Virus record (IMG/VR): IMGVR_UViG_3300025687_000279
Location: 1-26,094 of that record
DNA: 26,094 bases
DNA from: a virus
Strand: one strand, 5' to 3'
Of the stretch, positions 4,895-25,480 are shown piece after piece. The position numbers and the translations under genes were made by a program. Within the stretch, counting starts at the first letter, position 1, and the number at the start of each line of letters is the position of its first letter. The notes under the pieces are model-generated. The model was not told where the DNA came from, made no database searches, and saw only the letters and a program-made list of their open reading frames with translations.

Positions 4895-5161
4895 TTATAC
4901 CTCTTGATATGTCTTTGCAAAAATCTCTGGCTTGCAAGGGTAGAACTCACCGTTCACACCCTTGATAACCCAGTCACCCTGTCTAGCTTCCATACGACCT
5001 TCTAATGTATCAATCCAGAGTGTGGGTGGATTTGTTTGATAGCCGACTGCAGGACTGTTTATCCACTCTTCAATGTCTAATACAGACTTTACGTCCGTAA
5101 TTTGCATTGCTTCAACTGTCACGGGGCGCTTTCTAAACTTTCTCACTAAATTTTCTTCCAT
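4895..5161 (-). CDS. small conserved phage protein (RPVxVEA...GEFYPCKP family), 88 aa
   Basis: I recognise the layout from many phages and prophages: an N-terminal FRKRPVTVEAMQ, a central GDWVIKGVNGEFYPCKP and a C-terminal IFAKTY. Its function is not established. It is a compact beta-rich protein without signal or membrane segments. The start overlaps the primase 3' end by 16 bases, and the gene ends two bases before the thyX start, so the three are read as one unit. GGAG lies 8 bases upstream of the ATG. Confidence 0.8.
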   Translation of the reverse strand: MEENLVRKFRKRPVTVEAMQITDVKSVLDIEEWINSPAVGYQTNPPTLWIDTLEGRMEARQGDWVIKGVNGEFYPCKPEIFAKTYQEV

Positions 5162-6150
5162 CTCTCAAACTCCAGCTTCGCTCTTAGATCGTTGAACGTG
5201 TTAGTATCTATAAGACTTTGAATCTCACTAGATGTTCCACCACTCAAGATATAGTCATTTATGTCTTTAGCCACTATACCTTGTGGCCAAATAAAAATAT
5301 TTTTATTTTGACTGATTGTCTTGGCCATCTGTCTCACAATCTCAGGATTGCGCGGTTCATTATCATGAATGAACACATAGTCATGATTACCAAGCAAAAG
5401 AGAGATATTATACAGTGAAGCATCCATAGTTGCAAGTGAATTCTGCAAGAATAGACTATCAATTGGACCTTCTACAACATAGATTCTCTTGTTGAAATCT
5501 ACACGATCAAGACCAAATACTTTTCTGTTATCATCATCAAGCTTGATTGTGATGTACTTGATTTTGGAATTATTCAAAGCGCGACCTTGTACACCAAGCA
5601 GATTCTTTTCTTCATCATAGAAAGGAAACACAATACGCGGTTCATCATACAATGTCTTCTCATAGTCAGGAAGCATTTCCATGACGAACGCTTTGAAGTT
5701 CTCAGCATAGTATATATCATTGAATTTTTCACTTGGTATCTCGCGGCTTTTCAGATACTCCTTTGCATAGTGCCCAGAAGGCAACAATGCAATAGTCGGC
5801 AAGTCAATGCGCTTCTTGAATACTGGCTTTGTCTTAGCGATTGCAAAGTCAGGCTTTGCTACATTGCCAGATGACTCATTCTTGAAACGTTCCATCTGAT
5901 ACTCACGATACAGTGAGGGATCAACAACCTTGAGGAAGTTTCCAAGAGAAAGACTTGTTCCACAGTTATGGCAAGTATAGAACAGGTCTGACTTGCGACG
6001 ATAGAAATAGCCGCGAGCCTTACCTTTGTTCTTGCTGGAATCACCGCAAATTTTACATCTGCAATTCCACAAGTATTCCGATTTTTGCTTGAAACGTTCC
6101 AGTTTAGGAGAAACTAAGGAAACGAACTTCTTGTCAATGTATAAAGACAT
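5146..6150 (-). CDS. DNA primase, T4 gp61-type
   Basis: Makes RNA primers for lagging-strand synthesis together with a gp41-like helicase. The N-terminal zinc-binding domain shows CRCKICGDSSK (C32, C35) and YTCHNCG (C60, C63). The Toprim core follows, with Glu in VVEGPIDSLF (E227), a conserved Asp in FIHDNEPRN (D263) and KDINDY (D296). The length of 334 aa is close to T4 gp61. The start codon sits at the edge of a 13-bp perfect inverted repeat that contains its ribosome-binding site, and a near-consensus sigma70 promoter lies just upstream (6177-6204). It heads the primase, 88-aa, thyX, nrdJ unit. Confidence 0.92.
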   Translation of the reverse strand: MSLYIDKKFVSLVSPKLERFKQKSEYLWNCRCKICGDSSKNKGKARGYFYRRKSDLFYTCHNCGTSLSLGNFLKVVDPSLYREYQMERFKNESSGNVAKPDFAIAKTKPVFKKRIDLPTIALLPSGHYAKEYLKSREIPSEKFNDIYYAENFKAFVMEMLPDYEKTLYDEPRIVFPFYDEEKNLLGVQGRALNNSKIKYITIKLDDDNRKVFGLDRVDFNKRIYVVEGPIDSLFLQNSLATMDASLYNISLLLGNHDYVFIHDNEPRNPEIVRQMAKTISQNKNIFIWPQGIVAKDINDYILSGGTSSEIQSLIDTNTFNDLRAKLEFERWKKI

Positions 6151-6181
6151 AATGCCACCTAGTTGTATTAGGTGGCATTAT
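6149..6181 (-). promoter_or_regulatory. 13-bp inverted repeat over primase start and -10
   Basis: ATAATGCCACCTA (6149-6161), 7-nt loop, TAGGTGGCATTAT (6169-6181), with no mismatches. On the minus strand the 3' arm holds the AGGTGG ribosome-binding site and runs into the ATG. The 5' arm contains most of the TATAAT -10 box. It could be an operator, an RNA hairpin blocking primase translation on read-through transcripts, or both. No T-run on either side, so not a terminator. Confidence 0.75.
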
Positions 6182-6204
6182 AACAGATGGTATCAGAAAG
6201 TCAA
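6177..6204 (-). promoter_or_regulatory. sigma70-type promoter for primase unit
   Basis: Minus-strand TTGACT (6199-6204), 16 bp, TATAAT (6177-6182). This is the best -10 in the window. Initiation about 7 bases downstream would give a transcript lacking much of the 5' arm of the hairpin that masks the primase start. Confidence 0.7.
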
Positions 6205-6438: not shown

Positions 6439-6912
6439 TTACTTTATGATTTTGTCCAATATGTCTATCTGACCAGCAATCCAAGCAACAATAGCAATAG
6501 CAAGAACAACACCATACTTCCACATTTCAATCTTGCCAAGTCTATCACCGATACCTTCTTTGTTCTTTGTCAACTCTTCTCTTAGATTCTTAATCTCTCC
6601 AAGAATTGTTCTCTCTGTGTCTTCAATCTTATCTGTTAGTTCTTTGTTTACCGTATTGATGCGATTGTACACATCCTTTATGTTATTGTTGTGTTCTTGT
6701 CTACGCATTTCTAGTAATTCCTGCACTTCTCTGGTTATCTTTTCTTGAGTTTCAAGTCTCTGCTCTTGCAAAGATACCATTTTAGAAAGACTAGATGCGA
6801 TCTCTTGCATCTTGTCAATCGTCGTGTCAAACTTTTCCAACAATGCTGCCATTGTTGTAATGTCTTTTTTAAGGAGTTCTATTTCAATTCGGTTGTCTTG
6901 TTCTATAGCCAC
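6439..6912 (-). CDS. coiled-coil protein with C-terminal membrane helix
   Basis: The start is GTG (6910-6912) with AAGGG upstream; no ATG fits. Residues roughly 10-125 are heptad-rich (for example LLEKFDTTIDKMQEIASSLS and NTVNKELTDKIEDTERTIL). Residues 132-155 form one hydrophobic helix (YGVVLAIAIVAWIAGQI), giving a C-terminal tail-anchored topology. Next to two holins and an endolysin, a lysis accessory or membrane-tethered scaffold role is plausible. There is no lipobox, so it is not a classical spanin. A NATAAATA late box (6932-6939) precedes it. Confidence 0.7.
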   Translation of the reverse strand: MAIEQDNRIEIELLKKDITTMAALLEKFDTTIDKMQEIASSLSKMVSLQEQRLETQEKITREVQELLEMRRQEHNNNIKDVYNRINTVNKELTDKIEDTERTILGEIKNLREELTKNKEGIGDRLGKIEMWKYGVVLAIAIVAWIAGQIDILDKIIK

Positions 6913-7454: not shown

Positions 7455-8168
7455 TTATTTCTTTGTTTTTCTTAGATATGTCTTACCGTTCCAAGTAAAT
7501 TTTTGACCCTCTGGTGTTCTTGCGAAAATCTGTTTGAATGTTTCTTTATTATTAGATGATGATGTCACATCTTGCTTCTTGCCTTTAGATGTAAAATTCA
7601 AGTCCATTGATTTAGGTTCTGGAATAGAAACTGCTTGTTTAGTATTATCTAAAGGTCTCAATTTTGGTTTAGGCGGAGGAACAGCAGGTTCTTGTGTGGG
7701 CCTTAGTTTTGGCTTTGGTACAACTTTATCGACTGCTGTTTTAGGAACAGCAGGTGGTGTTTTCAATGGATCTGAATAAGTTGTCTTATAAGGACCTGAA
7801 CCAGGTGTAGGTGGCTCATCACCTGCTTCTGCTGCTGCAAGTCTATCTTTAACAGATGTTGGATATCCTGCGGGTGGTGAACGATAATCTTTGCGAAGAC
7901 CTAACTCACGCTTTGCATTTGGTTTATTAGAGATGCTTGATGGATCAATAGATTGACCGTTGCCAAGATCATATCGTGAGCCTGTGTAGTCTACCTTATC
8001 GCTTGGTGTAATTTTACTTGTTCCGTCAGCAGCAGGCATTGAACGAATGTTCATTTGCTTAAGGTCTTTATTTACCGTGTCAAAACCAGCTTCAAGTTTC
8101 TTTTGAATATCTGCTCTTCTTTGCTGAACTTGATCTTGTTCTAATATAAACTGTTTAAATGTTTTCAT
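7455..8168 (-). CDS. Pro-rich protein with T4-like capsid-targeting N-terminus
   Basis: Probable internal head protein, 237 aa. The first ten residues MKTFKQFILE closely match the T4 internal-protein targeting peptide MKTYQEFIAE, with I-x-E at 8-10 as in prohead-protease sites. The middle is low-complexity, proline- and lysine-rich (KLRPTQEPAVPPPKPKLRP). The C-terminus carries the FTWNGKTYLRKTKK motif that recurs at the ends of many phage virion proteins. The start overlaps the preceding holin stop by four bases (ATGA). If cleaved after Glu10, the mature protein would be disordered and basic. Its placement inside the lysis cluster is odd. No enzyme motif is seen. Confidence 0.75.
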   Translation of the reverse strand: MKTFKQFILEQDQVQQRRADIQKKLEAGFDTVNKDLKQMNIRSMPAADGTSKITPSDKVDYTGSRYDLGNGQSIDPSSISNKPNAKRELGLRKDYRSPPAGYPTSVKDRLAAAEAGDEPPTPGSGPYKTTYSDPLKTPPAVPKTAVDKVVPKPKLRPTQEPAVPPPKPKLRPLDNTKQAVSIPEPKSMDLNFTSKGKKQDVTSSSNNKETFKQIFARTPEGQKFTWNGKTYLRKTKK

Positions 8169-8455
8169 TTGTTTCTCGTTGGTGTTTGAGTTGTCTTTGT
8201 CTTCTCTTCTATCGTTTCTATTCCGCCTTCAAGAATGCGAGTGATCTTTTCTTTACCTCTTGTCCAAGCAGCAACACCAATGATTGCTGCCATTGCAAGA
8301 TGATAGAAACCACCCTCTTTCAATGTGATAGGATCCCATTGCTGTTGTGCAAAATACATGTATGATGCTGGAAAAATAATGAAGTCAAACACACAGACAG
8401 TAAAATACTGCCATGCGATTGCTGGTCTCCAGTATTGTTTGATCCAGCTTTCCAT
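8165..8455 (-). CDS. second holin-like membrane protein, 96 aa
   Basis: Small protein with two hydrophobic helices: residues about 10-34 (AIAWQYFTVCVFDFIIFPAS) and 47-64 (GGFYHLAMAAIIGVAAW), then a charged tail (TRGKEKITRIL...). The WRPAIAWQY start and GGxxHLAMxAIxGVxAxTRG motif match a holin family I know from marine and alphaproteobacterial phages. It directly follows the endolysin with a TAATG overlap, the classical holin-endolysin pairing. A second holin 0.7 kb downstream means one may be an antiholin. Confidence 0.75.
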   Translation of the reverse strand: MESWIKQYWRPAIAWQYFTVCVFDFIIFPASYMYFAQQQWDPITLKEGGFYHLAMAAIIGVAAWTRGKEKITRILEGGIETIEEKTKTTQTPTRNK

Positions 8456-8976
8456 TATCTTAGTCTCGCAAACTGCCAGTGCATACCATCGCAGCGGCGT
8501 TCATCTAGTGTATTACCGTTGCCGTTCCAATCACCACCCCATATTGCACCAGTCTTGGACCAAGCATCAAGCACTTCTGGAAACTGTGCAAAACGAGGTG
8601 TTCTATCACCAAGAAAATTGTTAGGAGCATCAAGATCAATTGCACAACCCCATGAGTGCATAGACAGACTGTTACCACCACGCATCAAGCGATAGTTATA
8701 GCAACCGCCAAAAATGGATACACCCCAATGATCTAGTGTAGACTGCTTACCATTTGCAGCTTTGAGGAGATTGTTGAATGCTTCCTGAAAACCAACGAGA
8801 CAATTCTTGTTGACTTTGAATCGTGATACAGGTTTGCCTGCATATGTGATTCTAAATGGTGGTTTGTAGAATACAAGATATTCTGATTCCCACTTTGCTG
8901 ATGGTTTAGTAATGTTCTTGCTGCGAGGATTTCCATAGAAAGCGTCACAGTCACGTTGTAATGGCCAATTTGTCAT
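8455..8976 (-). CDS. endolysin, M15-type peptidase
   Basis: Predicted peptidoglycan endopeptidase (L-Ala-D-Glu or D-Ala-type) that degrades the host wall at lysis. Zinc-ligand and catalytic residues of the M15 family are visible: H107 and D114 in SMHSWGCAIDLD, and H166 in CDGMHWQFA, with the conserved GGDWN at 147-151. 173 aa, normal for a single-domain endolysin. No signal peptide, so export needs the adjacent holin. The ribosome-binding GAGG lies inside the end of the upstream gene, two bases of separation between the frames. Confidence 0.88.
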   Translation of the reverse strand: MTNWPLQRDCDAFYGNPRSKNITKPSAKWESEYLVFYKPPFRITYAGKPVSRFKVNKNCLVGFQEAFNNLLKAANGKQSTLDHWGVSIFGGCYNYRLMRGGNSLSMHSWGCAIDLDAPNNFLGDRTPRFAQFPEVLDAWSKTGAIWGGDWNGNGNTLDERRCDGMHWQFARLR

Positions 8977-11262: not shown

Positions 11263-11748
11263 TTAGGTGCCTGGGAAGTATGTATTATCTGCTGTATCAT
11301 CGCCAGTGATTGAACCTGTTGCTACAAGTGTTTCATAGAAACGACGACCAGCACGACCACCAACAGTTGCTGTTACAGAAGCAATTGCTGTATTTGTACC
11401 AGGTACAATAATTGTTGGTGCAGATGAATAACCTGAACCACCGGAATTAATTACGACAGATGTTACATTACCATCTTCATTTACTGTGAATGAAGCATTG
11501 GCACCTGAACCATCACCTGTAAATCTTAAAAAGCCGTTTGAATATCCTTCACCAGCATCAACAATTGTAAGTTCCGTAACTGGACCTGTACCAAGAGTTT
11601 GAACTACCCAACCTGAGTGAGTAACTTTTGGTCCATCTACAAGTGTATTTGCTGCTTCTGTTACTGACACACCATATGTTGATGATGTGTTTGAAAAAAT
11701 AGGCTTTTGATTGCCTGTTGCGTTATCTAGGTTTCCCCATAGAGACAT
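11263..11748 (-). CDS. structural protein with GxGY beta repeats, 161 aa
   Basis: Starts MSLWGNLDNATGNQKPIF and ends GGRAGRRFYETLVATGSITG...FPGT, a framing I recognise from a T4-superfamily virion protein of marine phages. In between are two copies of a beta-strand repeat, TELTIVDAGEGYSNGF and TSVVINSGGSGYSSAPTI, typical of surface or fibre-like bacterial and phage proteins. Likely an outer capsid, neck or decoration protein. A strong AAGGAG precedes the start. The candidate late box at 11802-11809 lies upstream. Confidence 0.75.
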   Translation of the reverse strand: MSLWGNLDNATGNQKPIFSNTSSTYGVSVTEAANTLVDGPKVTHSGWVVQTLGTGPVTELTIVDAGEGYSNGFLRFTGDGSGANASFTVNEDGNVTSVVINSGGSGYSSAPTIIVPGTNTAIASVTATVGGRAGRRFYETLVATGSITGDDTADNTYFPGT

Positions 11749-11760
11749 TGTTATTACTCC

Positions 11761-12102
11761 TTATTGTGTTCCGACCATAGCTGAATCTTGTTCTGGTGTT
11801 GTATTTATTATAGATAACTTTGTGTTAGCTTTTTCTTCTTTTTTCTCACTCAGCTTAAATTTATATCTATCTGGTTTGTTTCTTTGATGACCAAGTTTTG
11901 ATTGTGATGCCATTCTAGGACCTGCTAACTTTTTAGCTATTCTAAAATTTGTAGGAATTGCACCTCTTTTAAATTCATTGAGAGTGTCTTCAGCAACATC
12001 ACGACTTGGACCCTTCATGTTTGAAGTGGTATTCATGTCTGTCATTTCCATTCGCTCTTTGTGAAGTGCTTTTATCATTCCTGCTAGTTTTTTATTGTTC
12101 AT
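11761..12102 (-). CDS. hypothetical virion-region protein, 113 aa
   Basis: I take the start at 12100-12102 (MNNKKLAGMIKALHKERMEM), which follows directly on the stop of the upstream gene; an earlier ATG at 12141 lies inside that gene. The protein is basic and apparently disordered in the middle (GPRMASQSKLGHQRNKPDRYKF), with no membrane or catalytic motif. Its position between DUF6496-containing and GxGY structural genes suggests a minor virion or assembly component. Not recognised. Confidence 0.6.
   Translation of the reverse strand: MNNKKLAGMIKALHKERMEMTDMNTTSNMKGPSRDVAEDTLNEFKRGAIPTNFRIAKKLAGPRMASQSKLGHQRNKPDRYKFKLSEKKEEKANTKLSIINTTPEQDSAMVGTQ
11802..11809 (-). promoter_or_regulatory. T4-like late promoter box AATAAATA
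   Basis: Minus-strand AATAAATA about 54 bases upstream of the GxGY structural gene, inside the end of the preceding gene. Weak evidence because the surroundings are AT-rich. Confidence 0.25.
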
Positions 12103-12781: not shown

Positions 12782-15700
12782 TTACTTCCTTCTGCAACGC
12801 CAGCGTCTCAATGAAGCTGCTTTACGAGTTGGTCTACCCTTCTTGTCTTTCATTGGACCTGGCATTCCGCTCATTCTTGCACAGAATGATTTGCGTCTTG
12901 CTTTTCTTTTTGGTCCTGGATTTGGTTCTGTTACTGCTGTCTGAACACCAAACTTCTTTGCACCTTTTGCTGTTAGACCTGCGCCGCTTTCTGTTGATCT
13001 GTAAAGACCTTTTGAATCTGCACCGCGTTCATTTAGTTGCTGTTCTTGAACCGTCTTCATTGATCTGGATGTTGATATATTGTAATTTTTTCCACCCAAT
13101 TCTTTGTTTTTTCCTAAATCTTGAGATGTTATCTTCTCTTTATATGTCTGTGTGCCGCTTGGTGTTTTTTGTATAGATTTATTTACTATAGTTTCAGTAC
13201 CACGACTAAAAGGGTTTTTGGTCTTCTTTACATAAACTGAAGAATTGTAATTGCCGTTACTCTCACGACCGCCTTGATAGTTTACTGTAGGAACATTTAT
13301 CTCATTCACATCATCTTTGCGCTGAGTTGGAATTGGACTTAGATTATTGACACTACCTTCCATACCTTCACGCAGCTTCTTGATAGATTTCTTTTCACTG
13401 TGACTGCAACCACAACCAGCCTCTTCTAATCTCAAAGCAGCTTCAACAAGTTTTTCTTCCCAAAGATTGCCGTACTTATCTGCAAACTTCTGTTGTGTTC
13501 TTTCTGATTGCATCCAGCTTACGATACTCTCTGACAATCCCATAGAGTATGCGCTACCATATCCAAAACCGTATGGTGTGCCTGCTCTTGGTACACCTAT
13601 TGTTGGACCAATACCATCAGCACCAAAAACATAACCACCCTGTACAGATGCTTCCGAAGCTTCTTGACTTAGTTTCTTTTTCTTTTTTTGACCCGGTGTC
13701 ATACCACGATAAAGATTATCTAATGAATCTGTTGCAATTTGTCTTTCACTTGGCTTATTGCCGTTTGCTTCTGCGAACTTTTCAAAAGCTTCGTTAGCAG
13801 GAACGCAGTTAGGTACTTTACGGCCGTTCTTTTTCTTCATGCCGACCATCTCGTAGCCTTTCCAGCACGGATCGTTCTTCTTCATCTTCTTTTCTTCGTT
13901 CATTGTTTGAACCCTTACTAATTGACCACCCTTACTATGATACATGACTTTGTTTACACCACCAACTTTGCGACCAAAGCGACCAAATCCATAATATGAC
14001 AATCCAAGTCTTCTAGCCTGAAGCATTAGATCATTATCTGGTTTATGAACAACTTTTGGAACGCCTTGACGAATTTGTGTGAGACTCTTATATCTCTTTG
14101 GCTCTTGATATGTGATGCCGCGCTTCTTTGTTTCAGCTTCAATCCACTTTGCAGCGGTTGGGTTTTTGTTCTCAGCACGAACAAACTGTTGAGCCATACG
14201 ACGAACACGATTAAAGTTGGTAAGAACTTTTGCTTTTTCTTCTGGACCAACTTTACGAATATCTGCTGTGTTATCAATAACAGTAAACTTTTCATTACCA
14301 AATATCTTTTGAAGTTCACCGATATTCTTCTGTGCTAAATCCCACTTCTCTTGACGAATGTTAGGTGAGTTGTCTGGATTACCTTGCTTGTCAGTACCAT
14401 CTGGAACTTTACGCTTACCCATCTTACCGCGTTCAACATTACGCTCACGCGATACTTCATTGGATGTGTTTACGAATACCATCATAGTTTCGTAACCATC
14501 ACGTTCAAGTTCACCCTTGATCTTTTTTATTTTCTCTAGATCATCTGCGGTACCGTTGATGATTAGACCAAGACGACCTGCTAGTGCTAGACGCTCTTGT
14601 TCCTTTGTAATGTTCTTCGCACGACCACGAACAATGTCACGCTCAACTCTTTCTTCATCTGGCATTTCAAGGTCAAGGCCGTTCTTCTGCATTAGATATT
14701 CAAATGCAACATCGGAATTGATTTCTTTCAATCCTTCTCCTGCAAGAGTTGCATTCATCACATAGTCTTTACCTGATCCTGGACCACCAGCTAAGAAGAT
14801 AGCTTTAAGTTTGCCAGGATCGTTGATTCCCTCTTCTAGTCTCTGCCCTATGTTTGGATTTATATTAAGAGTTTTTATTTTTTTTTCTTTTCCGCCCATT
14901 CTCATTTTTATTGTGTCTGTTTTAGATCCAACATATCTGTTTGGATCGGATCTTTTATTGACCACAGGAGTGTTTGATCTAAATTTGTTAGGATCAGCAT
15001 TAGGTATTCTTGGTTCTGGATCTAAAGTTGCGCCAGGTCTTACAAAATGTTGACGAAATTCTTTATCTTGTCTCTTCGCTTCAAGATTTTTTGCGAGTTC
15101 TTGAGAAGCAGGAGATGCCATTGTAATTTCATTCAATTGTTCTTTGATTGTTTTTAAACTTTTCATTGCTCTGCCTTTATACTCTTTTTTGCCTTTATAG
15201 TCCATCCAAGAATTATCAATACCGTCATCAACCCAAAGTCCTGATGTGTTATTCTTTATTTGATTTGTATATGATTGATTGTTTAAAACATACTGAGATG
15301 TTACTGTAGGCGAAACTTCACCTGTCACATTACCTAGACCACGTATACCACTAACTGGTGCTAGTGCTGCTGAGTTTGTTGATTCTACAACATAACTCTT
15401 GCTGAACATATCTGGATTAGATTTAGCGAACCAACGCATGATCTTACCTGCTTCCGCATTTGCTTCGTTCTCAATGTCTGAACCTGTCTCACCTTCTTTT
15501 GCTATATCTTTACCGAGACGACCATCTTCATTCTGCTTGTGATGCACAAGTTCATGTGCAACAGAACGAAATATATCCATTGGATGACGATTTGCTGTAC
15601 ATATAGAAAGTTCATTTGATGAGGGATTGTATGCAGCAAATGAGTTGTAGTCATCATCATTTGTCTTGTATCTGACAGTAGGCATTGATTTGAGACCAAG

Positions 15701-16396
15701 CTTGTCAGAAGCAAATGATACAAATGAATCAAGCATAGGTGCTAGTTCTTTGCGAGTGACTTCTTCTTTTAACTGCTTTATTGTTTTAGGCTTCTTGAGC
15801 ATTGCACCAATCTTATCATTCATTAGCTTATGAACAGATGCATTATACTTGCCAAACAAGTCCTTGATGAAAGCTTTTTGCTTCTCATCATTCAAGGAAA
15901 CAAACTGCTTACGTAGTTCTGAGGCCGATGTTGCTGGTTTGCCTAATACATCAAACGTAAATGTAGGTGTGACAATGACATATCCTTTTGGCATCATTGT
16001 ATCGCCAAACGGCTTTAGCTTCTTTTCGTTGCCTTTGTATGGTTGAAGATAGCCTGGTTTGCCAGATTTAGTTGGCTTGAATGAAAATCTAGGGTCTTCT
16101 TCCATGTCTTTTTGCGACACAGCAAATACCAAAACCGTAGTCTTGGGATCGTACTGTCTGAGTATTTCTCTGGCTATGTAGGGATTTGTGACTTGTTGAA
16201 TATCACTAGATGGCACACCAGCCAACATCATCATTCGTTTCTTCTCGGCGAAGTTGAATGGACTTTTTGGTGCTTCTACTTTATCTGAAGTGGCAATGAC
16301 TGCATCGCCAAACTTGTTTTTTAACCACTGATAGACCTGAGCGTGACCCTTATGAAATGGTTGAAAGCGCCCAGGATAAACTGCTAAAATTTTCAT
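12782..16396 (-). CDS. 1204-residue multidomain cargo protein (nucleotidyltransferase, metallopeptidase, P-loop kinase, basic tail)
   Basis: Domains in order: 1-195 HxGH nucleotidyltransferase (GRFQPFHKGH 9-18; SASELR 157-162); 215-340 metallopeptidase-like (HELVH, H281/E282/H285, with a possible third ligand in ENEANAE 309-315); 530-740 P-loop kinase (GGPGSGKD 537-544; Arg-rich SRERNVERGK). Then a CWKGYEMVGMKKKNGRKVPN block (844-863), a SESIVSWMQSERTQQKFADK block (954-973) and a basic Cys-containing end (KSFCARMSGMPGPMKDKKGR, DUF6321-like). Motifs resembling the T4 capsid-targeting peptide with L-x-E recur at 203-211, 414-423 and 1113-1123. This suggests fused cargo modules, possibly released by the prohead protease. 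A hairpin (16402-16430) abuts its ribosome-binding site. Confidence 0.85.
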   Translation of the reverse strand: MKILAVYPGRFQPFHKGHAQVYQWLKNKFGDAVIATSDKVEAPKSPFNFAEKKRMMMLAGVPSSDIQQVTNPYIAREILRQYDPKTTVLVFAVSQKDMEEDPRFSFKPTKSGKPGYLQPYKGNEKKLKPFGDTMMPKGYVIVTPTFTFDVLGKPATSASELRKQFVSLNDEKQKAFIKDLFGKYNASVHKLMNDKIGAMLKKPKTIKQLKEEVTRKELAPMLDSFVSFASDKLGLKSMPTVRYKTNDDDYNSFAAYNPSSNELSICTANRHPMDIFRSVAHELVHHKQNEDGRLGKDIAKEGETGSDIENEANAEAGKIMRWFAKSNPDMFSKSYVVESTNSAALAPVSGIRGLGNVTGEVSPTVTSQYVLNNQSYTNQIKNNTSGLWVDDGIDNSWMDYKGKKEYKGRAMKSLKTIKEQLNEITMASPASQELAKNLEAKRQDKEFRQHFVRPGATLDPEPRIPNADPNKFRSNTPVVNKRSDPNRYVGSKTDTIKMRMGGKEKKIKTLNINPNIGQRLEEGINDPGKLKAIFLAGGPGSGKDYVMNATLAGEGLKEINSDVAFEYLMQKNGLDLEMPDEERVERDIVRGRAKNITKEQERLALAGRLGLIINGTADDLEKIKKIKGELERDGYETMMVFVNTSNEVSRERNVERGKMGKRKVPDGTDKQGNPDNSPNIRQEKWDLAQKNIGELQKIFGNEKFTVIDNTADIRKVGPEEKAKVLTNFNRVRRMAQQFVRAENKNPTAAKWIEAETKKRGITYQEPKRYKSLTQIRQGVPKVVHKPDNDLMLQARRLGLSYYGFGRFGRKVGGVNKVMYHSKGGQLVRVQTMNEEKKMKKNDPCWKGYEMVGMKKKNGRKVPNCVPANEAFEKFAEANGNKPSERQIATDSLDNLYRGMTPGQKKKKKLSQEASEASVQGGYVFGADGIGPTIGVPRAGTPYGFGYGSAYSMGLSESIVSWMQSERTQQKFADKYGNLWEEKLVEAALRLEEAGCGCSHSEKKSIKKLREGMEGSVNNLSPIPTQRKDDVNEINVPTVNYQGGRESNGNYNSSVYVKKTKNPFSRGTETIVNKSIQKTPSGTQTYKEKITSQDLGKNKELGGKNYNISTSRSMKTVQEQQLNERGADSKGLYRSTESGAGLTAKGAKKFGVQTAVTEPNPGPKRKARRKSFCARMSGMPGPMKDKKGRPTRKAASLRRWRCRRK

Positions 16397-20329: not shown

Positions 20330-20420
20330 TGGCGGAAGGAGTGGGATTCGAACCCACGGTACCTGATTAGGGTACGCCTCGTTAGCAGTGAGGTGCCTTC
20401 GGCCTCTCGGCCATCCTTCC
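20330..20420 (-). tRNA. tRNA-Ser(GCT)
   Basis: 91 nt with encoded CCA, discriminator G, and a long variable arm as expected for serine. Anticodon loop CTGCTAA; T-loop TTCGAAT. The last tRNA of the array in transcription order. Confidence 0.95.
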
Positions 20421-20424
20421 TATA

Positions 20425-20874
20425 TTATTCTGTAATCTCTATATATGTATTATACTTGCCGTATTCGTTTACGATGCGGTACAACCAACGAGCATTCTGA
20501 GGGCTAAGACGAATACATCCATGTGATGCGGGTTGACCAAGCTTCTTTACTTCTGTTGTCGCATGAATTGCATAACCACCATGAAAGAAGATAGAATGAG
20601 GCATCGGCGCATTATTATATTTGGATGAATAGTGCATCGGCCTTAACAGATAAGGCTGAAACACACCAGTCGGAGTACGATATCCCTTACGACCGGTAGA
20701 AACGTCCCACTCAAAATAGTCAGTAGGTGTTTCTACATACATCTTCTGATCGGACTTGTCAATCCGAATAATCACTTCATGCTCACCAAGCGGCTCAACA
20801 CCAGCTTTAGCACCGTTAACAAGCATAAAGATTGCAGCAGTCATCACTGTCAACATAACAAAAAACTTAGTCAT
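20425..20874 (-). CDS. secreted L,D-transpeptidase (YkuD family)
   Basis: Periplasmic enzyme that forms or ex-changes 3-3 peptidoglycan crosslinks or attaches proteins to the wall. A signal peptide is clear: MTKF plus a hydrophobic stretch FVMLTVMTAAIFMLVNG and a predicted cut after AKA (residue 24). The catalytic signature is complete: H104 in YAIHAT, then S117-H118-G119-C120-I-R122 with nucleophile C120. 149 aa, a single-domain form. It lies in the tRNA array, not in the lysis cluster. It could modify the wall during infection, for example to delay lysis or exclude other phages; that role is inference. Confidence 0.9.
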   Translation of the reverse strand: MTKFFVMLTVMTAAIFMLVNGAKAGVEPLGEHEVIIRIDKSDQKMYVETPTDYFEWDVSTGRKGYRTPTGVFQPYLLRPMHYSSKYNNAPMPHSIFFHGGYAIHATTEVKKLGQPASHGCIRLSPQNARWLYRIVNEYGKYNTYIEITE

Positions 20875-20875
20875 T

Positions 20876-21373
20876 TTATCCTACCTTCACTTGTGGAATA
20901 TGTTGAATTGCGTCCTTGTACCTGTCAGCACAGTAAGATGCTGCCCAAGCATTTGGCTTCACTAGAGGTACCACATTACACATACCACGAATGTAACCAA
21001 CAGCTTCATTTATAACACAAGATGAACCGTGTTTCAAGTCAGGATTGATGTCCAGATGAATTTCAAAGTCACGTTCGCCAATTGCTTCCTCAAGGTCGAG
21101 GTACAACTGCGCTGTCTTCATCACTTCATTCATCAGACGCATACGTGGCTTGTCCTTCTGCTGATCATAGTCACGCTCACGCATAACGGAACCAAACACA
21201 CGACAGCCGTTCTTGCCGTTCTTATGAACAACGACAACGTTGATGTAGTCAGCCATCCAAACGCCATTCAACTGAAAGCGTTCTGAGTCGCCACCTAGAT
21301 ATACTTTTGTTTCCTTAGATTGTGCTTGAATGAATGCACGAACTTCGTCTAAATCCATATTCTTTCTAATCAT
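20876..21373 (-). CDS. RNase H-like protein of the YkuK family
   Basis: The sequence shows GGDSER near residue 27-32, a central VVVHKNG, the acidic EIHLDINPD block and a C-terminal KPNAWAASYCAD. This is the pattern of the uncharacterised YkuK/DUF458 RNase H-fold family, so a nuclease acting on RNA is plausible, but activity is unproven. 165 aa. The start is ambiguous: the ATG at 21371-21373 overlaps the end of the YspA-like gene, while the ATG at 21356-21358 is better spaced from AGAAAG. The stop is one base from the L,D-transpeptidase ATG side of the junction. Confidence 0.82.
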   Translation of the reverse strand: MIRKNMDLDEVRAFIQAQSKETKVYLGGDSERFQLNGVWMADYINVVVVHKNGKNGCRVFGSVMRERDYDQQKDKPRMRLMNEVMKTAQLYLDLEEAIGERDFEIHLDINPDLKHGSSCVINEAVGYIRGMCNVVPLVKPNAWAASYCADRYKDAIQHIPQVKVG

Positions 21374-21707
21374 TTATTTTCACAACTGGGATACCAGCTG
21401 ACTCCGCTAAGTTAATCATCATTTGAGTGCCTTTACCACCTGGAAAAGCTATTACCAAATCTGGTTTGCCTTCATTCAACATTTGCACATTGCGAATGTA
21501 TCCTGCTCTTTTACCATATTTATTCCAATCAGCAGGATAATTCTTGAACTCAATACCATTGTCAACTGCCCAGATTTTGGCCAGATCGTCTGCTCCTCTA
21601 GCAGAACCTTGAATGATGATATTGTCTTTTGAAGCATAAGGCTGGAGTGCCTTATTAAGGAGGGCTCTGTTATTGAAGTCACGGCCGCCGCATACTAGAA
21701 TACGCAT
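21366..21707 (-). CDS. YspA-like SLOG-family protein (DUF2493)
   Basis: Rossmann-like nucleotide-sensing domain: MRILVCGGRDFNNRALLNKA, then IIQGSARGADDLAKIWAV and VIAFPGGKGTQMMI. These are the three conserved blocks of the cpYpsA/YspA SLOG family, which bind nucleotide-derived ligands and often accompany defence or NAD/ADP-ribose metabolism. 113 aa, typical length. The ribosome-binding site and ATG lie in a 17-base sequence (ATAGGAACTTAACAATG) that recurs on the opposite strand at 25729-25745. It overlaps the YkuK-like gene. Confidence 0.85.
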   Translation of the reverse strand: MRILVCGGRDFNNRALLNKALQPYASKDNIIIQGSARGADDLAKIWAVDNGIEFKNYPADWNKYGKRAGYIRNVQMLNEGKPDLVIAFPGGKGTQMMINLAESAGIPVVKIND

Positions 21708-21723
21708 TGTTAAGTTCCTATAA

Positions 21724-21797
21724 TGGTGCCTCTATCCAGAATCGAACTGGAGCCAATCCCCTACCAAAGGATTGTTCTACCACTATACTATAGAGGC
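21724..21797 (-). tRNA. tRNA-Thr(GGT)
   Basis: 74 nt, encoded CCA, acceptor GCCTCTA/TAGAGGC, anticodon loop TTGGTAG, T-loop TTCGATT. Confidence 0.93.
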
Positions 21798-21803
21798 AGT
21801 GAT

Positions 21804-21888
21804 TGGTGCGGGTAGAGAGACTTGAACTCCCATGGATTACTCCGCTGGAACCTAAATCCAGTGCGTCTGCCAATTTCGCCATACCCGC
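21804..21888 (-). tRNA. tRNA-Leu(TAG)
   Basis: 85 nt with class II variable arm and encoded CCA. Acceptor GCGGGTA/TACCCGC, anticodon loop TTTAGGT, T-loop TTCAAGT. Confidence 0.93.
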
Positions 21889-21893
21889 ATTAA

Positions 21894-21968
21894 TGGTAGC
21901 CGCTGAGAGAATCGAACTCCCTACACCCTCGGTGTAAACGAGGTGTTCTACCAGTGAACTAAGCGGCT
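21894..21968 (-). tRNA. tRNA-Val(TAC)
   Basis: 75 nt, acceptor AGCCGCT/AGCGGCT, A73, encoded CCA, anticodon loop TTTACAC. Its 5' end overlaps the last codons of the heme oxygenase gene by 10 bases. Confidence 0.93.
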
Positions 21969-22456
21969 TTGATTTCGTTCATGATGTTTAGAAGGGCTTG
22001 AAAACAGTTTCTGGCTTCTACAATCACATCTTCGCGCTCTCTAAACTTTGTTAATTCTACTATTGCTGCTTTTCTATCTGACCATTCAAGATGACTGGTA
22101 GGATAGCCAACAAGTCTTCTACGCATTACTTCACCGCCCATCAAATGGGCACCTGTCAATACATAAGCTGAGCCAACGATATCTTTTTCCGTATTCAGTC
22201 TATTTACATAATCGTTAGCTGTGCGGATTATATTAACAGGACAGTTTGTATCTGTTAAGTCTTTTTGAACTTGTTCCGATCTGCGAATGATTTCTGGAAT
22301 GTGCTGATCTACAGTCCAGTGAATTGTGTACAAAGCAGAAAGCCAGTCTGCATACCATTGCATTGGTGGTTTTCCAGATGCCATAGCAGCACCTACTGGA
22401 TGTTCCTCACAAGCATGATGCAAGTCTCTTGTGCCTTCCCATAATGGTCCTGGCAT
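21959..22456 (-). CDS. heme oxygenase-like protein
   Basis: Predicted to open heme to biliverdin, releasing Fe(II) and CO. The proximal-His region is GTRDLHHACEEHP (H13 as ligand in the T-x3-H pattern). The flexible distal-helix glycines appear in GSAYVLTGAHLMGGEVMRRR. 165 aa, all-helical as expected. Heme oxygenases are known in marine cyanophages for pigment synthesis; in a presumed alphaproteobacterial phage, iron release or a bilin signal is more likely. AGGAG precedes the ATG. The stop codon (TAG) lies inside the tRNA-Val gene, so tRNA processing would cut the mRNA at its very end. Confidence 0.85.
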   Translation of the reverse strand: MPGPLWEGTRDLHHACEEHPVGAAMASGKPPMQWYADWLSALYTIHWTVDQHIPEIIRRSEQVQKDLTDTNCPVNIIRTANDYVNRLNTEKDIVGSAYVLTGAHLMGGEVMRRRLVGYPTSHLEWSDRKAAIVELTKFREREDVIVEARNCFQALLNIMNEIKAA

Positions 22457-22473
22457 ATTATCTCCTATAAAAC

Positions 22474-22567
22474 TGGAGGCCCGTTAGCTTGTCATGCAGC
22501 CTACTGGTTTGGAAACCAGCATCTGAACGACTTACCCCTCTAAAGGACTTCTATACCGCTACGGGCC
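22474..22567 (-). tRNA. aberrant tRNA-like gene A (no canonical T-loop)
   Basis: 94 nt with a perfect 7-bp acceptor (GGCCCGT/ACGGGCC), U73 and encoded CCA. The interior is odd: a 5-bp stem CTGGT/ACCAG closes a 6-nt loop TTCCAA, resembling a Gly(TCC) or Trp anticodon arm that has lost one base. A canonical TTC T-loop is missing; the equivalent place holds GCATGACA in an imperfect stem. It may be a decayed tRNA or a distinct tRNA-like RNA. Identity not assigned. Confidence 0.45.
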
Positions 22568-22583
22568 AAGAGCGGTTTCTAAA

Positions 22584-22757
22584 TTACATACCAGACATTA
22601 ATGATGTGATAGAATCAGAAATCCAGAGCCACCATGCTGCAAGTGCTGCTACGATAGCTGCTCCACCTTTCTTCATGTCCCAGCCGTTCTGCCACATTGT
22701 CCATAGAACCCAAAGCACGGCTGCAATCAAAACTAAAACTACGATTGTGTTTAGCAT
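22584..22757 (-). CDS. small two-helix membrane protein, 57 aa
   Basis: Start at 22755-22757 (MLNTIVVLVLIAAVLWVLWT) because GAGGT is seven bases upstream; an in-frame ATG 33 bases further out has no ribosome-binding site. Two hydrophobic helices (residues about 3-22 and 33-50, GAAIVAALAAWWLWI) are joined by a short polar loop (WQNGWDMKKG). It could be a holin-like or superinfection-exclusion protein; neither is supported by a motif. A CATAAATA late box lies at 22795-22802. It sits between tRNA-Gly and the aberrant tRNA-like gene. Confidence 0.7.
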   Translation of the reverse strand: MLNTIVVLVLIAAVLWVLWTMWQNGWDMKKGGAAIVAALAAWWLWISDSITSLMSGM

Positions 22758-22794
22758 TTGTATTACCTCATTTAGACCTTGATTGGTCAATGAG

Positions 22795-22802
22795 TATTTA
22801 TG
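22795..22802 (-). promoter_or_regulatory. T4-like late promoter box CATAAATA
   Basis: Minus-strand CATAAATA between the tRNA-Gly CCA end and the small membrane protein, about 37 bases upstream of its ATG. Confidence 0.4.
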
Positions 22803-22804
22803 AT

Positions 22805-22878
22805 TGGAGCGGGTAGCGGGAATCGAACCCGCGCATTCTCGTTGGCAACGAGATAAGCTACCATTACATCATACCCGC
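22805..22878 (-). tRNA. tRNA-Gly(GCC)
   Basis: 74 nt, acceptor GCGGGTA/TACCCGC, U73 as usual for Gly, encoded CCA, anticodon loop TTGCCAA, T-loop TTCGATT. Confidence 0.95.
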
Positions 22879-22881
22879 AAT

Positions 22882-22957
22882 TGGTGCGTCTTCCAAGTTT
22901 CGAACTGGGTTGTTCGGCTTATGAGACCGATGAGATTGCCAACACCTCCCAAGACGC
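22882..22957 (-). tRNA. tRNA-Met(CAT), elongator or Ile2
   Basis: 76 nt, acceptor GCGTCTT/AAGACGC, A73, CCA, anticodon loop CTCATAA. The G1-C72 pair and lack of GGG/CCC in the anticodon stem exclude a normal initiator. A lysidine-modified Ile2 cannot be excluded. Confidence 0.9.
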
Positions 22958-22962
22958 ATTAA

Positions 22963-23038
22963 TGGTGCTGCCTCTCTGAATCGAACAGAGTCCCCACGCT
23001 CTTCAGGCGCATGTACGCACCAGCTATACCAAGGCAGC
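22963..23038 (-). tRNA. tRNA-Phe(GAA)
   Basis: 76 nt, acceptor GCTGCCT/AGGCAGC, A73, encoded CCA, anticodon loop CTGAAGA, T-loop TTCGATT. Confidence 0.95.
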
Positions 23039-23044
23039 GTTTAT

Positions 23045-23191
23045 TCAATCACGAAGCAACTGAGGAGCTGATTCCGTCAAGTTCTTCTTTTCGTATTCTT
23101 GTAGTTTAGCAGAGTATTGTTCGTTTGACAACCCATGCCAACCAATACACTTACCAGTTGGACTACGACCACAACCACAATCTTTAGACAT
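23045..23191 (-). CDS. CDGSH-like mini-protein, 48 aa
   Basis: Short gene between tRNA-Ser(TGA) and tRNA-Phe, starting at 23189-23191 with GAGGA upstream. The N-terminus MSKDCGCGRSPTGKCIGWHG has three Cys and one His (C5, C7, C15, H19) in an order close to the CDGSH [2Fe-2S] motif C-x-C-x2-S-x3-P-x-C-D-G-S-H, one residue shorter. The rest is a charged helix (NEQYSAKLQEYEKKNL). It may bind an iron-sulfur cluster or zinc. I have seen CGCGRSPTG-xC-xGWH in short alphaproteobacterial and phage proteins, but know no function. Confidence 0.65.
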   Translation of the reverse strand: MSKDCGCGRSPTGKCIGWHGLSNEQYSAKLQEYEKKNLTESAPQLLRD

Positions 23192-23207
23192 TTGCTTTCC
23201 TCTTGTT

Positions 23208-23295
23208 TGGCGGATAGGGTAGGATTCGAACCCACGGAACCGTTAAGTTCTTCGGTTTTCAAGACCGATGCGATAGACCACTCTGCCACCTATCC
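23208..23295 (-). tRNA. tRNA-Ser(TGA)
   Basis: 88 nt, long variable arm, G73, encoded CCA, anticodon loop CTTGAAA, T-loop TTCGAAT. Confidence 0.95.
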
Positions 23296-23333
23296 AAATT
23301 CGCTCCGATTTCTTAAAGTGGTTACGGCCTCCA

Positions 23334-23362
23334 CTATTATGTTAACGAGAGTTTCCAGTCAA
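23334..23362 (-). promoter_or_regulatory. candidate promoter TTGACT-17-TAATAG
   Basis: Minus-strand TTGACT (23357-23362), 17 bp, TAATAG (23334-23339), 39 bases upstream of tRNA-Ser(TGA). Weaker -10 than its neighbour at 23429-23457. Confidence 0.4.
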
Positions 23363-23428
23363 GTACAGTCCACTCACAAACCTCTAGCTGCGGGATGGCG
23401 GAACGCATTACTTGCCGCCACGATGTAT

Positions 23429-23457
23429 ATATTAGACTGTATCCCACATATTGTCAA
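23429..23457 (-). promoter_or_regulatory. sigma70-type promoter TTGACA-17-TAATAT
   Basis: Minus-strand TTGACA (23452-23457), 17 bp, TAATAT (23429-23434), directly after the RlpA-like stop codon. It should re-initiate transcription of the distal part of the tRNA array. The leader contains a GGCGG/CCGCC hairpin. Confidence 0.65.
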
Positions 23458-23459
23458 GT

Positions 23460-23822
23460 CTATCTTTTCTTCTTCTTTCCTAAGATTTCAACCTTGACTG
23501 TGCAAACTCCACCGCAGCCGATCTTTCTAGCGGCTGCTCTTGATAGGTCTAATTGTCTACCCTTGATGAACGGGCCCCTATCATTAATTACTACTATTAC
23601 CGATCTTCCTTTGTGTGTAACTCTCAGTCTTGTGCCAAAAGGCAATGTCTTGTGTGCTGCTGTTAAAGCATTTGGATTGAATTTTTGCCCGCTTGCAGTA
23701 ATCTTGCTTTTACTACATTCGCCAGGCTTGACGCAATCATACCAAGATGCTACCATTGTTGTAGCATTACTGGGTGCTGTCATTAAAAAAAGGACAGCAA
23801 AGGCTGCTATTAATAGTTTCAT
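23460..23822 (-). CDS. RlpA-like secreted double-psi beta-barrel protein
   Basis: 120 aa from the ATG at 23820-23822, preceded by AAGGAAAA. The signal peptide MKLLIAAFAVLFLMTAPSNA is followed by a domain with ASWYD, SGQKFNPNALTAAHKTLPFG, RVTHKGRSVIVVINDRGPF and the catalytic-type Asp in QLDLSRAAARKIG. These match RlpA/DPBB lytic transglycosylases acting on denuded glycan. Extra Cys pairs (CVKPGEC; CGGVC) could form disulfides in the periplasm. No lipobox, so soluble. Together with the L,D-transpeptidase it is the second exported wall enzyme in the tRNA array. Confidence 0.88.
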   Translation of the reverse strand: MKLLIAAFAVLFLMTAPSNATTMVASWYDCVKPGECSKSKITASGQKFNPNALTAAHKTLPFGTRLRVTHKGRSVIVVINDRGPFIKGRQLDLSRAAARKIGCGGVCTVKVEILGKKKKR

Positions 23823-23838
23823 TGTTGTTTTCCTTGTA

Positions 23839-23932
23839 TGGAGCATCTGACAGGATTCGAACCTGCATTAGGTACTTCTACCCATGTCCAGTTACCTTAC
23901 TCTCCGTTCGTAGCGGAGGGGGCTACAGATGC
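23839..23932 (-). tRNA. aberrant tRNA-Arg(ACG)-like gene B (no D-arm in usual place)
   Basis: 94 nt with perfect acceptor GCATCTG/CAGATGC, U73, CCA and a normal T-arm (TTCGAAT). A perfect anticodon arm CTCCG-CTACGAA-CGGAG gives anticodon ACG, but only 7 bases separate it from the acceptor, so there is no room for a D-arm. Instead 35 bases follow the anticodon arm, including D-arm-like text GGTAACTGG...TACC. It is the only arginine candidate in the array. Confidence 0.5.
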
Positions 23933-23938
23933 ATAGTT

Positions 23939-24013
23939 TGGAGGGGCCAACCAGATTTGAACTGGTACCTCAAGGATTTGCAGTCCCGCGCATTACCGTT
24001 TTGCTATGGCCCC
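23939..24013 (-). tRNA. tRNA-Cys(GCA)
   Basis: 75 nt, acceptor GGGGCCA/TGGCCCC, U73 as usual for Cys, CCA, anticodon loop CTGCAAA. Confidence 0.95.
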
Positions 24014-24018
24014 ATAAA

Positions 24019-24092
24019 TGGCTGCCCAGCATGGATTCGAACCACGATAGCCAGAGTCAGAATCTGGCGTCCTACCGTTAGACGACCGGGCA
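24019..24092 (-). tRNA. tRNA-Gln(CTG)
   Basis: 74 nt, acceptor TGCCCGG/CTGGGCA with U1-A72 and G73 as expected for Gln, CCA, anticodon loop TTCTGAC. Confidence 0.94.
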
Positions 24093-24097
24093 ATAAT

Positions 24098-24172
24098 TGG
24101 TACTGCATGGGGGAATCGAACCACCGTAACAGGTTTCACAGACCTGCGTCTTAGCCACTAGACTAATGCAGC
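24098..24172 (-). tRNA. tRNA-His(GTG), alphaproteobacterial form
   Basis: 75 nt, anticodon loop CTGTGAA. The discriminator is A73, base pair 1-72 is G-U, and the base before G1 is T, so there is no encoded G-1 opposite C73. This departs from most bacteria and matches the unusual histidine tRNA known from alphaproteobacteria. Confidence 0.94.
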
Positions 24173-24173
24173 A

Positions 24174-24251
24174 TGGAAGCGGGAGCAGGATTCGAACCTG
24201 CGACCTCTAGGATATGAACCTAGCAAGCTGACCTGACTGCTCTATCCCGCA
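24174..24251 (-). tRNA. initiator-like tRNA-Met(CAT)
   Basis: 78 nt. D-arm (AGAGCAG...AGCT) and variable loop (AGGTC) resemble initiator tRNA, and 1-72 is an unpaired U-U, the hallmark that blocks EF-Tu and marks initiators. However, the anticodon stem CTAGG/CCTAG lacks the full three G-C pairs, and position 73 is U. CCA encoded. Only one base separates it from tRNA-His. Confidence 0.8.
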
Positions 24252-24256
24252 ATATT

Positions 24257-24331
24257 TGGCAGCGCATAAGGGAATTGAACCCTTCTCTCCGGATTGAAAG
24301 CCCAGCATTCTGACCACTAAACTAATGCGCC
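24257..24331 (-). tRNA. tRNA-Glu(TTC)
   Basis: 75 nt, acceptor GGCGCAT/ATGCGCT (G1-U72), G73, CCA, anticodon loop CTTTCAA. Confidence 0.94.
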
Positions 24332-24336
24332 ATAAT

Positions 24337-24420
24337 TGGAGGACTGGGTGGGACTCGAACCCACGGTGTTTGCATAGCGGATTAAAAGTCCGCGCCGTTC
24401 GCCACTACGGTAACCAGTCC
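24337..24420 (-). tRNA. tRNA-Lys(TTT) with 12-nt variable region
   Basis: 84 nt, acceptor GGACTGG/CCAGTCC, U73, CCA. Anticodon stem GCGGA/TCCGC with loop CTTTTAA. The variable region is about 12 bases, far longer than the normal 5 for lysine tRNA, and U73 is not the usual lysine discriminator. Confidence 0.88.
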
Positions 24421-24473
24421 GTCTTTGTGTAGTGCGGCTTCATCTATGGACTATATGCTATGCAAGCACGAAT

Positions 24474-24547
24474 TGGCTGGGGAACGTGGATTCGAACCAC
24501 GACCGGAAGTTTCAAAGACTTCTATCCTACCTTTAGATGATTCCCCA
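24474..24547 (-). tRNA. tRNA-Gln(TTG)
   Basis: 74 nt, acceptor TGGGGAA/TTCCCCA (U1-A72), G73, CCA, anticodon loop CTTTGAA. The 53 bases to its left (24421-24473) hold nothing recognisable. Confidence 0.95.
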
Positions 24548-24554
24548 ATAAACA

Positions 24555-24654
24555 GGTGCGAGGAGAAGGATTCGAACCTTCATGGTGCCTGCGTGAGTTC
24601 ACGCTTTACGGCTACCCTCCTGCCGGATGCTTTTACCAGTTTCGCCATCCTCGC
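24555..24654 (-). tRNA. aberrant tRNA-like gene C (Leu-like ends, no clear anticodon)
   Basis: Perfect acceptor GCGAGGA/TCCTCGC, A73, a leucine-type D-arm (GGCGAAACTGGTAAAAGC) and a normal T-arm GAAGG-TTCGAAT-CCTTC. The encoded 3' end is ACCT, not CCA. Between D- and T-arms lie 46 bases with stems CGGC/GCCG closing a 9-nt loop AGGAGGGTA, and GCGTG/CACGC closing AACT. No loop has the required pyrimidine-T before an anticodon. Either a decayed or interrupted tRNA-Leu, or a tRNA-mimic RNA. Confidence 0.45.
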
Positions 24655-24657
24655 AAT

Positions 24658-24731
24658 TGGTTGGCCAGTAGGGAATCGAACCCTCATCGGACGCCTATCA
24701 AGCGCCTGCTTTACCATTAAGCTACAAGCCA
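24658..24731 (-). tRNA. tRNA-Ile(GAT)
   Basis: 74 nt, CCA encoded, A73, anticodon loop TTGATAG, T-loop TTCGATT. The acceptor stem has one U-U mismatch (6-67). The next 101 bases (24732-24832) contain a hairpin ACCGCC/GGCGGT and an AGAC-tatat-GTCT hairpin, but no gene I can name. Confidence 0.9.
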
Positions 24732-24832
24732 GTGAATTGTGAACCGTTTCGCTGGTCCCACTGAAAGGACGATCAACCCCGACAGACATATAGTCTCGGA
24801 CTTATATACCGCCACGGCCTACGGCGGTTACT

Positions 24833-24915
24833 TGGTGGGCAGGTGTGGTTACGCTCCACTCCCCTATGGACGGGTTTTACAGACCCGCTGCTGAAACTAC
24901 CAGCTTTACCTACCC
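24833..24915 (-). tRNA. tRNA-Tyr(GTA) with atypical T-loop
   Basis: 83 nt, acceptor GGGTAGG/CCTGCCC, A73, CCA. Perfect anticodon arm CGGGT-CTGTAAA-ACCCG. The T-stem GTGG/CCAC closes the loop AGCGTAA, lacking the universal TTC; the D-loop also lacks a clear GG pair in the usual setting. Amino-acid identity is clear, but tertiary D-T contacts would be abnormal. Confidence 0.8.
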
Positions 24916-24921
24916 GTTGTA

Positions 24922-24995
24922 TGGTGCCGCATGAGAGAATCGAACTCCCATCAGAGGATTACAAAGCCCCTGTATTGCCATTATACTAATGCGGC
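24922..24995 (-). tRNA. tRNA-Thr(TGT)
   Basis: 74 nt, acceptor GCCGCAT/ATGCGGC, A73, CCA, anticodon loop TTTGTAA (one mismatch closing the loop), T-loop TTCGATT. Confidence 0.92.
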
Positions 24996-25000
24996 GTTAT

Positions 25001-25075
25001 TGGTGGACCCTAAGAGAATCGAACTCTTACTTTCGCCGTGCAAAGGCGACATGCTCCCATTATCATCAAGGGCCC
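25001..25075 (-). tRNA. tRNA-Ala(TGC)
   Basis: 75 nt, acceptor GGGCCCT/AGGGTCC. The 3-70 pair is G-U, the alanine identity element. A73, CCA, anticodon loop TTTGCAC. Confidence 0.94.
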
Positions 25076-25080
25076 GTTAT

Positions 25081-25154
25081 TGGCACCAGTGCAAGGATTC
25101 GAACCCTGACAAGCAGTTTTGGAGGCTGCCGTGCTACCGTTACACTACACTGAT
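25081..25154 (-). tRNA. tRNA-Trp(CCA)
   Basis: 74 nt, acceptor ATCAGTG/CACTGGT, G73 as expected for Trp, CCA, anticodon loop CTCCAAA. Confidence 0.94.
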
Positions 25155-25160
25155 TTGAAT

Positions 25161-25382: not shown

Positions 25383-25387
25383 ATGAT

Positions 25388-25474: not shown

Positions 25475-25480
25475 ATGAAT

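Follow-up and report, generated by a model that had tools for sequence, protein, structure and literature searches.

Why should the promoter of a phage replication gene lie within one arm of an inverted repeat whose other arm covers the ribosome-binding site of the same gene? This question was raised by the start of a DNA primase gene in the record of an uncultured virus (IMG/VR IMGVR_UViG_3300025687_000279; 26,094 bases, the full length of which is referred to herein as the window). We consider it likely that the repeat is a promoter-embedded anti-read-through hairpin, that is, a cis-acting insulator for the primase.

Identification of the primase gene

The product of the gene matched the DNA primase family phrog_47 with an E-value of 8e-82 over residues 10-334, which constitutes a full-length family match, and it matched the Pfam family DNAG_N only below the Pfam cut-off. 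A tblastn search of the primase against 2409 phage records gave a top identity of 45.9%, the closest cultured relatives being the primases of cyanophages (Kyanoviridae; approximately 46% identity), and the Cys pairs CxxC and CHNC were invariant among the relatives. The phage of the window is an uncultured relative of T4, and its promoter hairpin is common to a whole clade of its kin.

Architecture of the primase start

The elements at the primase start are as follows.

5146..6150, minus strand: DNA primase of the T4 gp61 type, an ORF of 334 aa beginning with MSLYIDKK
6199..6204, minus strand: -35 hexamer TTGACT (TTGACT or TTGACA in nearly all close relatives)
6177..6182, minus strand: -10 hexamer TATAAT, preceded by TG (extended -10) at a spacer of 16, invariant in 17 aligned close relatives
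6169..6181, minus strand: hairpin 5' arm ATAATGCCACCTA, comprising most of the -10 box and the stretch between -10 and +1
6169, minus strand: predicted +1 (A), placed by the spacing rule seven bases after the -10 box
6162..6168, minus strand: hairpin loop ATACAAC, between the arms of the inverted repeat
6149..6161, minus strand: hairpin 3' arm TAGGTGGCATTAT, comprising the Shine-Dalgarno sequence AGGTGG (6160-6155) and the first two bases of the ATG

The arms, 6149-6161 and 6169-6181, constitute a perfect inverted repeat (13 nt each, 100% complementary, with a 7-nt loop), the longer of the two perfect repeats that the 26-kb window contains at an arm length of 12 nt or more and a loop no longer than 10 nt. 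In the mRNA sense of this minus-strand gene, the element reads TTGACT-N16-TATAATGCCACCTA-atacaac-TAGGTGGCATTATG. The start codon ATG occupies 6150-6148, and a 14th pair, G-U, extends the hairpin to its G. An earlier note on this DNA had described the repeat as spanning TATAAT, AGGTGG and the ATG; the perfect 13-bp repeat with AGGTGG inside it was borne out, but the arms take in all but one of the six TATAAT bases, and the ATG only in part. The predicted promoter matched the consensus at 11 of 12 positions and was the joint best sigma-70-like site in the window. As read from the sequence and the predicted start, it is positioned so that its own RNA would lack the 5' strand of the hairpin, barring perhaps the last 1-2 bases of the arm.

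Folding of read-through and promoter-initiated RNA

The mRNA-sense hairpin RNA was computed to fold at -20.7 kcal/mol against a mean of -9.2 for its shuffled counterparts (z -4.98), none of the 200 shuffles being as stable. RNA begun at 6168, one base past the predicted start, did not form the stem and folded at -2.6. The computed cost of opening AGGTGG was 17.7 kcal/mol in a read-through RNA starting 90 bases before the ATG, as against 2.6 kcal/mol for every start 5-10 bases past the -10 box; since the cost was equal for all of these starts, the argument does not hinge on the precise position of +1. In the computed folds of the longer transcripts, the stem sequestered the Shine-Dalgarno sequence and the AUG.

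Conservation among close relatives

From 2.9 million viral contigs, 26 primase loci with a readable start were obtained, and three further searches with alignments extended the set to 246 loci with a usable start, representing 173 distinct leaders. Strict Shine-Dalgarno matching missed many relatives with weak sites, and a test free of the Shine-Dalgarno sequence was therefore used instead. Both the promoter and the hairpin were kept in 18 of 18 distinct leaders of the close clade (primases at least 74% identical), compared with 3.3 hairpins expected from shuffled leaders under the same rule. Within this clade, mean pairwise identity reached 98% in the 3' arm and 88% over the 8 nt following the -10 box, but only 65% in the promoter spacer, 56% at third codon positions and 34% in the region farther upstream. 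Nearly all of the 8-nt stretch is expected to be missing from the RNA of the gene's own promoter, and we know of no requirement of sigma70 for such a discriminator sequence. Judged from these alignments, a discriminator conserved above all its surroundings needs a reason.

Across the arms, three sites show C>T facing a G and three show A>G facing a U; the seventh kind of change is a T>C, which disrupts its pair, and the relative L022 has a broken, A-C pair. Six of these seven kinds of substitution leave the mRNA with a G-U pair yet would break the dyad symmetry of the DNA. With the kinds treated as independent, the probability of such an outcome is ~1e-4 if all substitutions are equally likely (1 in 6), and ~0.06 if only transitions occur (1 in 2), which amounts to a modest bias. 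Two-sided compensatory changes were absent within the close clade, where the alignment did not exceed the column-shuffle control; classical covariation is accordingly not claimed for this clade, and the argument from covariation has to draw on the sister clades, where a column-by-column alignment of the leaders is not possible.

Recurrence in sister clades and specificity for the primase

In the leaders of distant primases, which are unrelated in sequence, the hairpin nevertheless begins 0-5 nt beyond the -10 box and pairs back onto the Shine-Dalgarno region, as in L072 (TATAAT-GACAGATC-gtaaaag-GATCTGTC-ATG) and L082 (TATAGT-A-GAACTCTTT-acttg-AAGGAGTTC), with further hairpins of the same geometry in L075, L070, L091, L094 and L114. 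Hairpins in the same register were found in 9 of 13 promoter-bearing leaders of the sister clade (primases ~59-66% identical; 1.9 expected), in 4 of 8 leaders of the next group (1.2 expected from shuffles) and in 16 of the 82 remaining sequences (6.1 expected from shuffles), these clade counts being descriptive because leaders of the same clade are not independent of one another. The Kyanoviridae-like group (L099-L117) has promoters with no such hairpin (0 of 9; 1.3 expected), and the hairpin is thus dispensable. Minimum-free-energy folds of 62-76-nt stretches from distant relatives often gave other helices, for which the leader-only test was the fairer one. On a tree of the 173 primases, the hairpin label required 22 changes against a mean of 41.6 for shuffled labels, with none of 500 shuffles as low.

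Some relatives carry another structure at this place. L185 and L256 have a terminator-like structure at the hairpin position, and the cultured Synechococcus phage MC09 (L267) has a terminator-like hairpin directly before its primase start. In L185 the -10 box TATACT is within the 5' arm, so that RNA from its own promoter should escape termination. We propose that these terminator-like hairpins at the primase start are an alternative route to the same insulation, which suggests that shielding of the primase from upstream RNA is what is selected, by whichever means.

The exact element had 30 matches in the 2.9 million viral contigs, all 30 of them before a primase-like frame starting MSL (one of these frames running past the end of the retrieved sequence), with no match elsewhere, and it had no copy in 84,980 bacterial and archaeal genomes. 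An Rfam search returned tRNAs only. Among 28 promoter-like site/ORF pairs in the window and a 167-kb sister contig (primase 92% identical), the primase alone had a strong hairpin in a non-coding leader; the one other strong hairpin lay inside the coding region of the window's thymidylate synthase, and none comparable was seen outside coding regions among the 26 non-primase pairs. Public records of T4-like phages and cyanophages likewise showed no equivalent promoter-hairpin at the primase.

Gene context of the primase

The primase and all the identified genes around it are on the minus strand. Upstream of it are a 54-aa ORF, a DUF7201 coiled-coil protein, a membrane-protein-like ORF (phrog_6637), a holin-like ORF and an M15 endolysin, the features that bear on the timing being as follows.

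6439..6912, minus strand: coiled-coil protein (DUF7201), co-directional with the primase and a near neighbour of it in relatives
8165-8455, minus strand: holin-like ORF of the lysis cassette
8455..8976, minus strand: M15-type endolysin of the lysis cassette, upstream of the primase
11802..11809, minus strand: late-promoter-like site AATAAATA, ~5.6 kb before the primase

The endolysin and the holin-like ORF mark the upstream unit as late-type. Going upstream from the primase, the site at 11802..11809 is the first late-promoter-like one to be followed closely by a structural-protein-like ORF (11263-11748, with baseplate/head-type PHROG matches), and a second AATAAATA lies at 6939 within the membrane-protein ORF. 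In the sister phage, NATAAATA sites are directly before the tail sheath, tail tube, scaffold and major head genes, and in cyanomyoviruses the late promoter is of this same kind while early genes have sigma70-like promoters (PMC2984593). No good minus-strand terminator was seen between the lysis genes and the primase, and we propose the DUF7201 gene as the source of read-through RNA. The gene preceding the primase varies in identity among relatives and is nearly always co-directional, usually 51-71 nt away.

Several other features of the window were recorded. The first third of phrog_451 matches the DUF7201 protein (6439-6912) and its last two thirds match the primase, a likeness in sequence that suggests fusion of the two proteins in some phages and that they may work together. 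RBS hairpins are known from T4-type homing endonucleases, and the SegE-type GIY-YIG endonuclease of the window (PF19835; 1506-1913, minus strand) has its GGAG Shine-Dalgarno sequence in a 9-bp hairpin, ACATACTCC-atag-GGAGTATGT, just upstream of the ATG at 1907. This hairpin is kept in the sister contig as well (G001:148203), and no NATAAATA was seen in its 5' arm. A 1204-aa ORF at 12782-16396 (minus strand) combines nucleotidyltransferase-like and zeta-toxin/AAA-type kinase domains with DUF6321, and 23 tRNA genes lie at 20330-25557 (minus strand), mostly in a dense array, on this T4-like phage contig.

Proposed mechanism and alternative explanations

From this arrangement we infer a mechanism in which RNA reading through from the co-directional lysis and structural genes would carry both arms and fold, hiding the Shine-Dalgarno sequence and the start codon, so that no primase would be made from such RNA. 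The primase's own sigma70-type promoter, which we take to be active, would start RNA about seven bases past the -10 box, without nearly all of the 5' arm, and the ribosome-binding site of that RNA would be open, no more than about 20 bases from the 5' end. Primase synthesis would thereby be tied to the gene's own early/middle promoter and kept off late transcripts. The proposal of the earlier note, that read-through RNA folds and hides the start and that RNA from the gene's own promoter loses most of the 5' arm, is in good agreement with the conserved register, the new sequences of the same geometry, the G-U-preserving changes and the folding energies.

The palindrome could instead be a DNA operator, at which a dimeric phage or host repressor bound over the -10 box and the start would block primase transcription, the RNA hairpin being a by-product. 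A near-perfect 13-bp dyad over -10/+1 is in the classical position of an operator, both arms are conserved, and a leader of ~20 nt has no room for a palindrome clear of the ribosome-binding site. In 10 of the 18 distinct leaders, however, a C>T at one site in one arm breaks the DNA dyad and keeps the G-U pair of the mRNA, as do six of the seven kinds of change overall, and related clades keep the position and the pairing with unrelated sequences. Moreover, no second copy of the palindrome beyond chance was found in the window with up to three mismatches allowed, nor any away from the primase in the 2.9 million viral contigs. A repressor on the palindrome, which the earlier note had offered as its alternative, thus became the less favoured of its two readings, given the symmetry broken by single transitions in most relatives and the lack of further copies, and we regard it as unlikely. 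By analogy with I-TevI, where a promoter-overlapping repressor and an RNA device coexist (PMC2988022), the two could also coexist at the primase.

It seems still less probable that the hairpin serves chiefly to terminate or attenuate transcription of the upstream unit and overlaps the primase promoter by happenstance. The hairpin was listed by a terminator scan, and a few relatives (L256, L185 and MC09) have a hairpin followed by a T run at the primase start, but in the clade of the window the stem is followed by TCTTTAT, which is coding sequence with no T run. The G+C-rich stem with a direct T run of an intrinsic terminator was thus not found, the tail TCTTTATACA being coding and the hairpin passing a loose scan only; the true-looking terminators of the window (19830-19807 and 25920-25891) are different, and the complementarity extends to the start codon, as hiding requires. 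An action of the hairpin on the promoter's own transcript, through RNA stability or as an autoregulatory site for the primase or another phage protein, would have a precedent in the T4 replication proteins gp32 and gp43, which bind their own mRNA leaders (PMC3014915). This we consider very improbable, however, as in those clades where the hairpin is present its 5' arm begins 0-5 nt after the -10 box, before the predicted start, and RNA from the gene's own promoter could not form the hairpin. Close relatives do share descent and some of the loci are of the same lineage, and a chance palindrome might have been retained in this way; such an origin is hardly credible in light of the non-coding, presumably untranscribed 5' arm that is far more conserved than its neighbours and of the independent sequences with the same geometry in sister clades.

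Comparison with known systems and significance

An RNA device that prevents translation from read-through transcripts is known from T4, in which the long transcripts of e, soc, 49 and I-TevI hide the ribosome-binding site and RNA begun at a promoter in the 5' arm is translated (PMC3014915, PMC2988022). Hairpins of this kind with a promoter in the 5' arm are also present at I-TevII/III, segB and Aeh1 mobE. According to a review, every T4 gene and homing endonuclease under such control is a late gene that is kept silent on early and middle transcripts (PMC2988022). The element of the window is like those of e, soc, 49 and I-TevI in mechanism, with the ribosome-binding site hidden in long RNA and the 5' strand absent from the gene's own RNA, but the T4 cases typically have a late promoter, TATAAATA, and are late genes, whereas here a promoter TTGACT-16-TATAAT stands before a primase, the NATAAATA sites being elsewhere. 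The element of the window works like the T4 cases and fails their late-promoter/late-gene feature, and is thus a variant rather than a member of that class. Given the sigma70-type promoter, the replication gene and the late-type upstream genes, the timing is probably reversed, and the parallel with I-TevI drawn by the earlier note thus holds for the mechanism but probably not for the timing. The primase of T4 itself is a middle protein (PMC9697503).

The window primase is homologous to T4 gene 61; in the T4-like phage vB_EcoM_ACG-C40, gene 61 follows 61.1 after a gap of 3 nt, within a run of genes, and has no such promoter-hairpin. The transposase genes of IS10/Tn10 and IS200 are reportedly guarded against outside transcription by mRNA structure (Davis et al. 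1985 and Beuzon et al. 1999, as cited in PMC2965389). Their read-through mRNA folds back on itself. They resemble the window element in being guarded by mRNA structure, a likeness drawn without sequence comparison, but belong to mobile elements, whereas the window gene is a core phage gene. In the literature searched, which left subscription journals largely outside it, no description of such control at a phage primase was found.

Phage genomes consist of packed co-directional genes with overlapping transcripts, and how early genes that lie behind late ones are kept off late RNA is rarely asked about. A tentative reading, to which we give slightly less than an even chance, is that in this uncultured clade of T4-like phages an insulator that evolves recurrently, with the promoter itself as its 5' arm, confines the primase to its own early promoter. 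It would be the T4 device in reverse, shutting off an early gene on late RNA, and in different lineages unrelated hairpins or terminators would have arisen at the same place. The use of the promoter's own -10 region as the blocking arm would make a very compact insulator of roughly 55 bp. Being specific to one replication gene and clade-wide, it would allow a direct test of the need to limit the dose of primase late in infection, and it would place a core replication gene under a mode of control that is known from late genes of T4 and from homing endonucleases.
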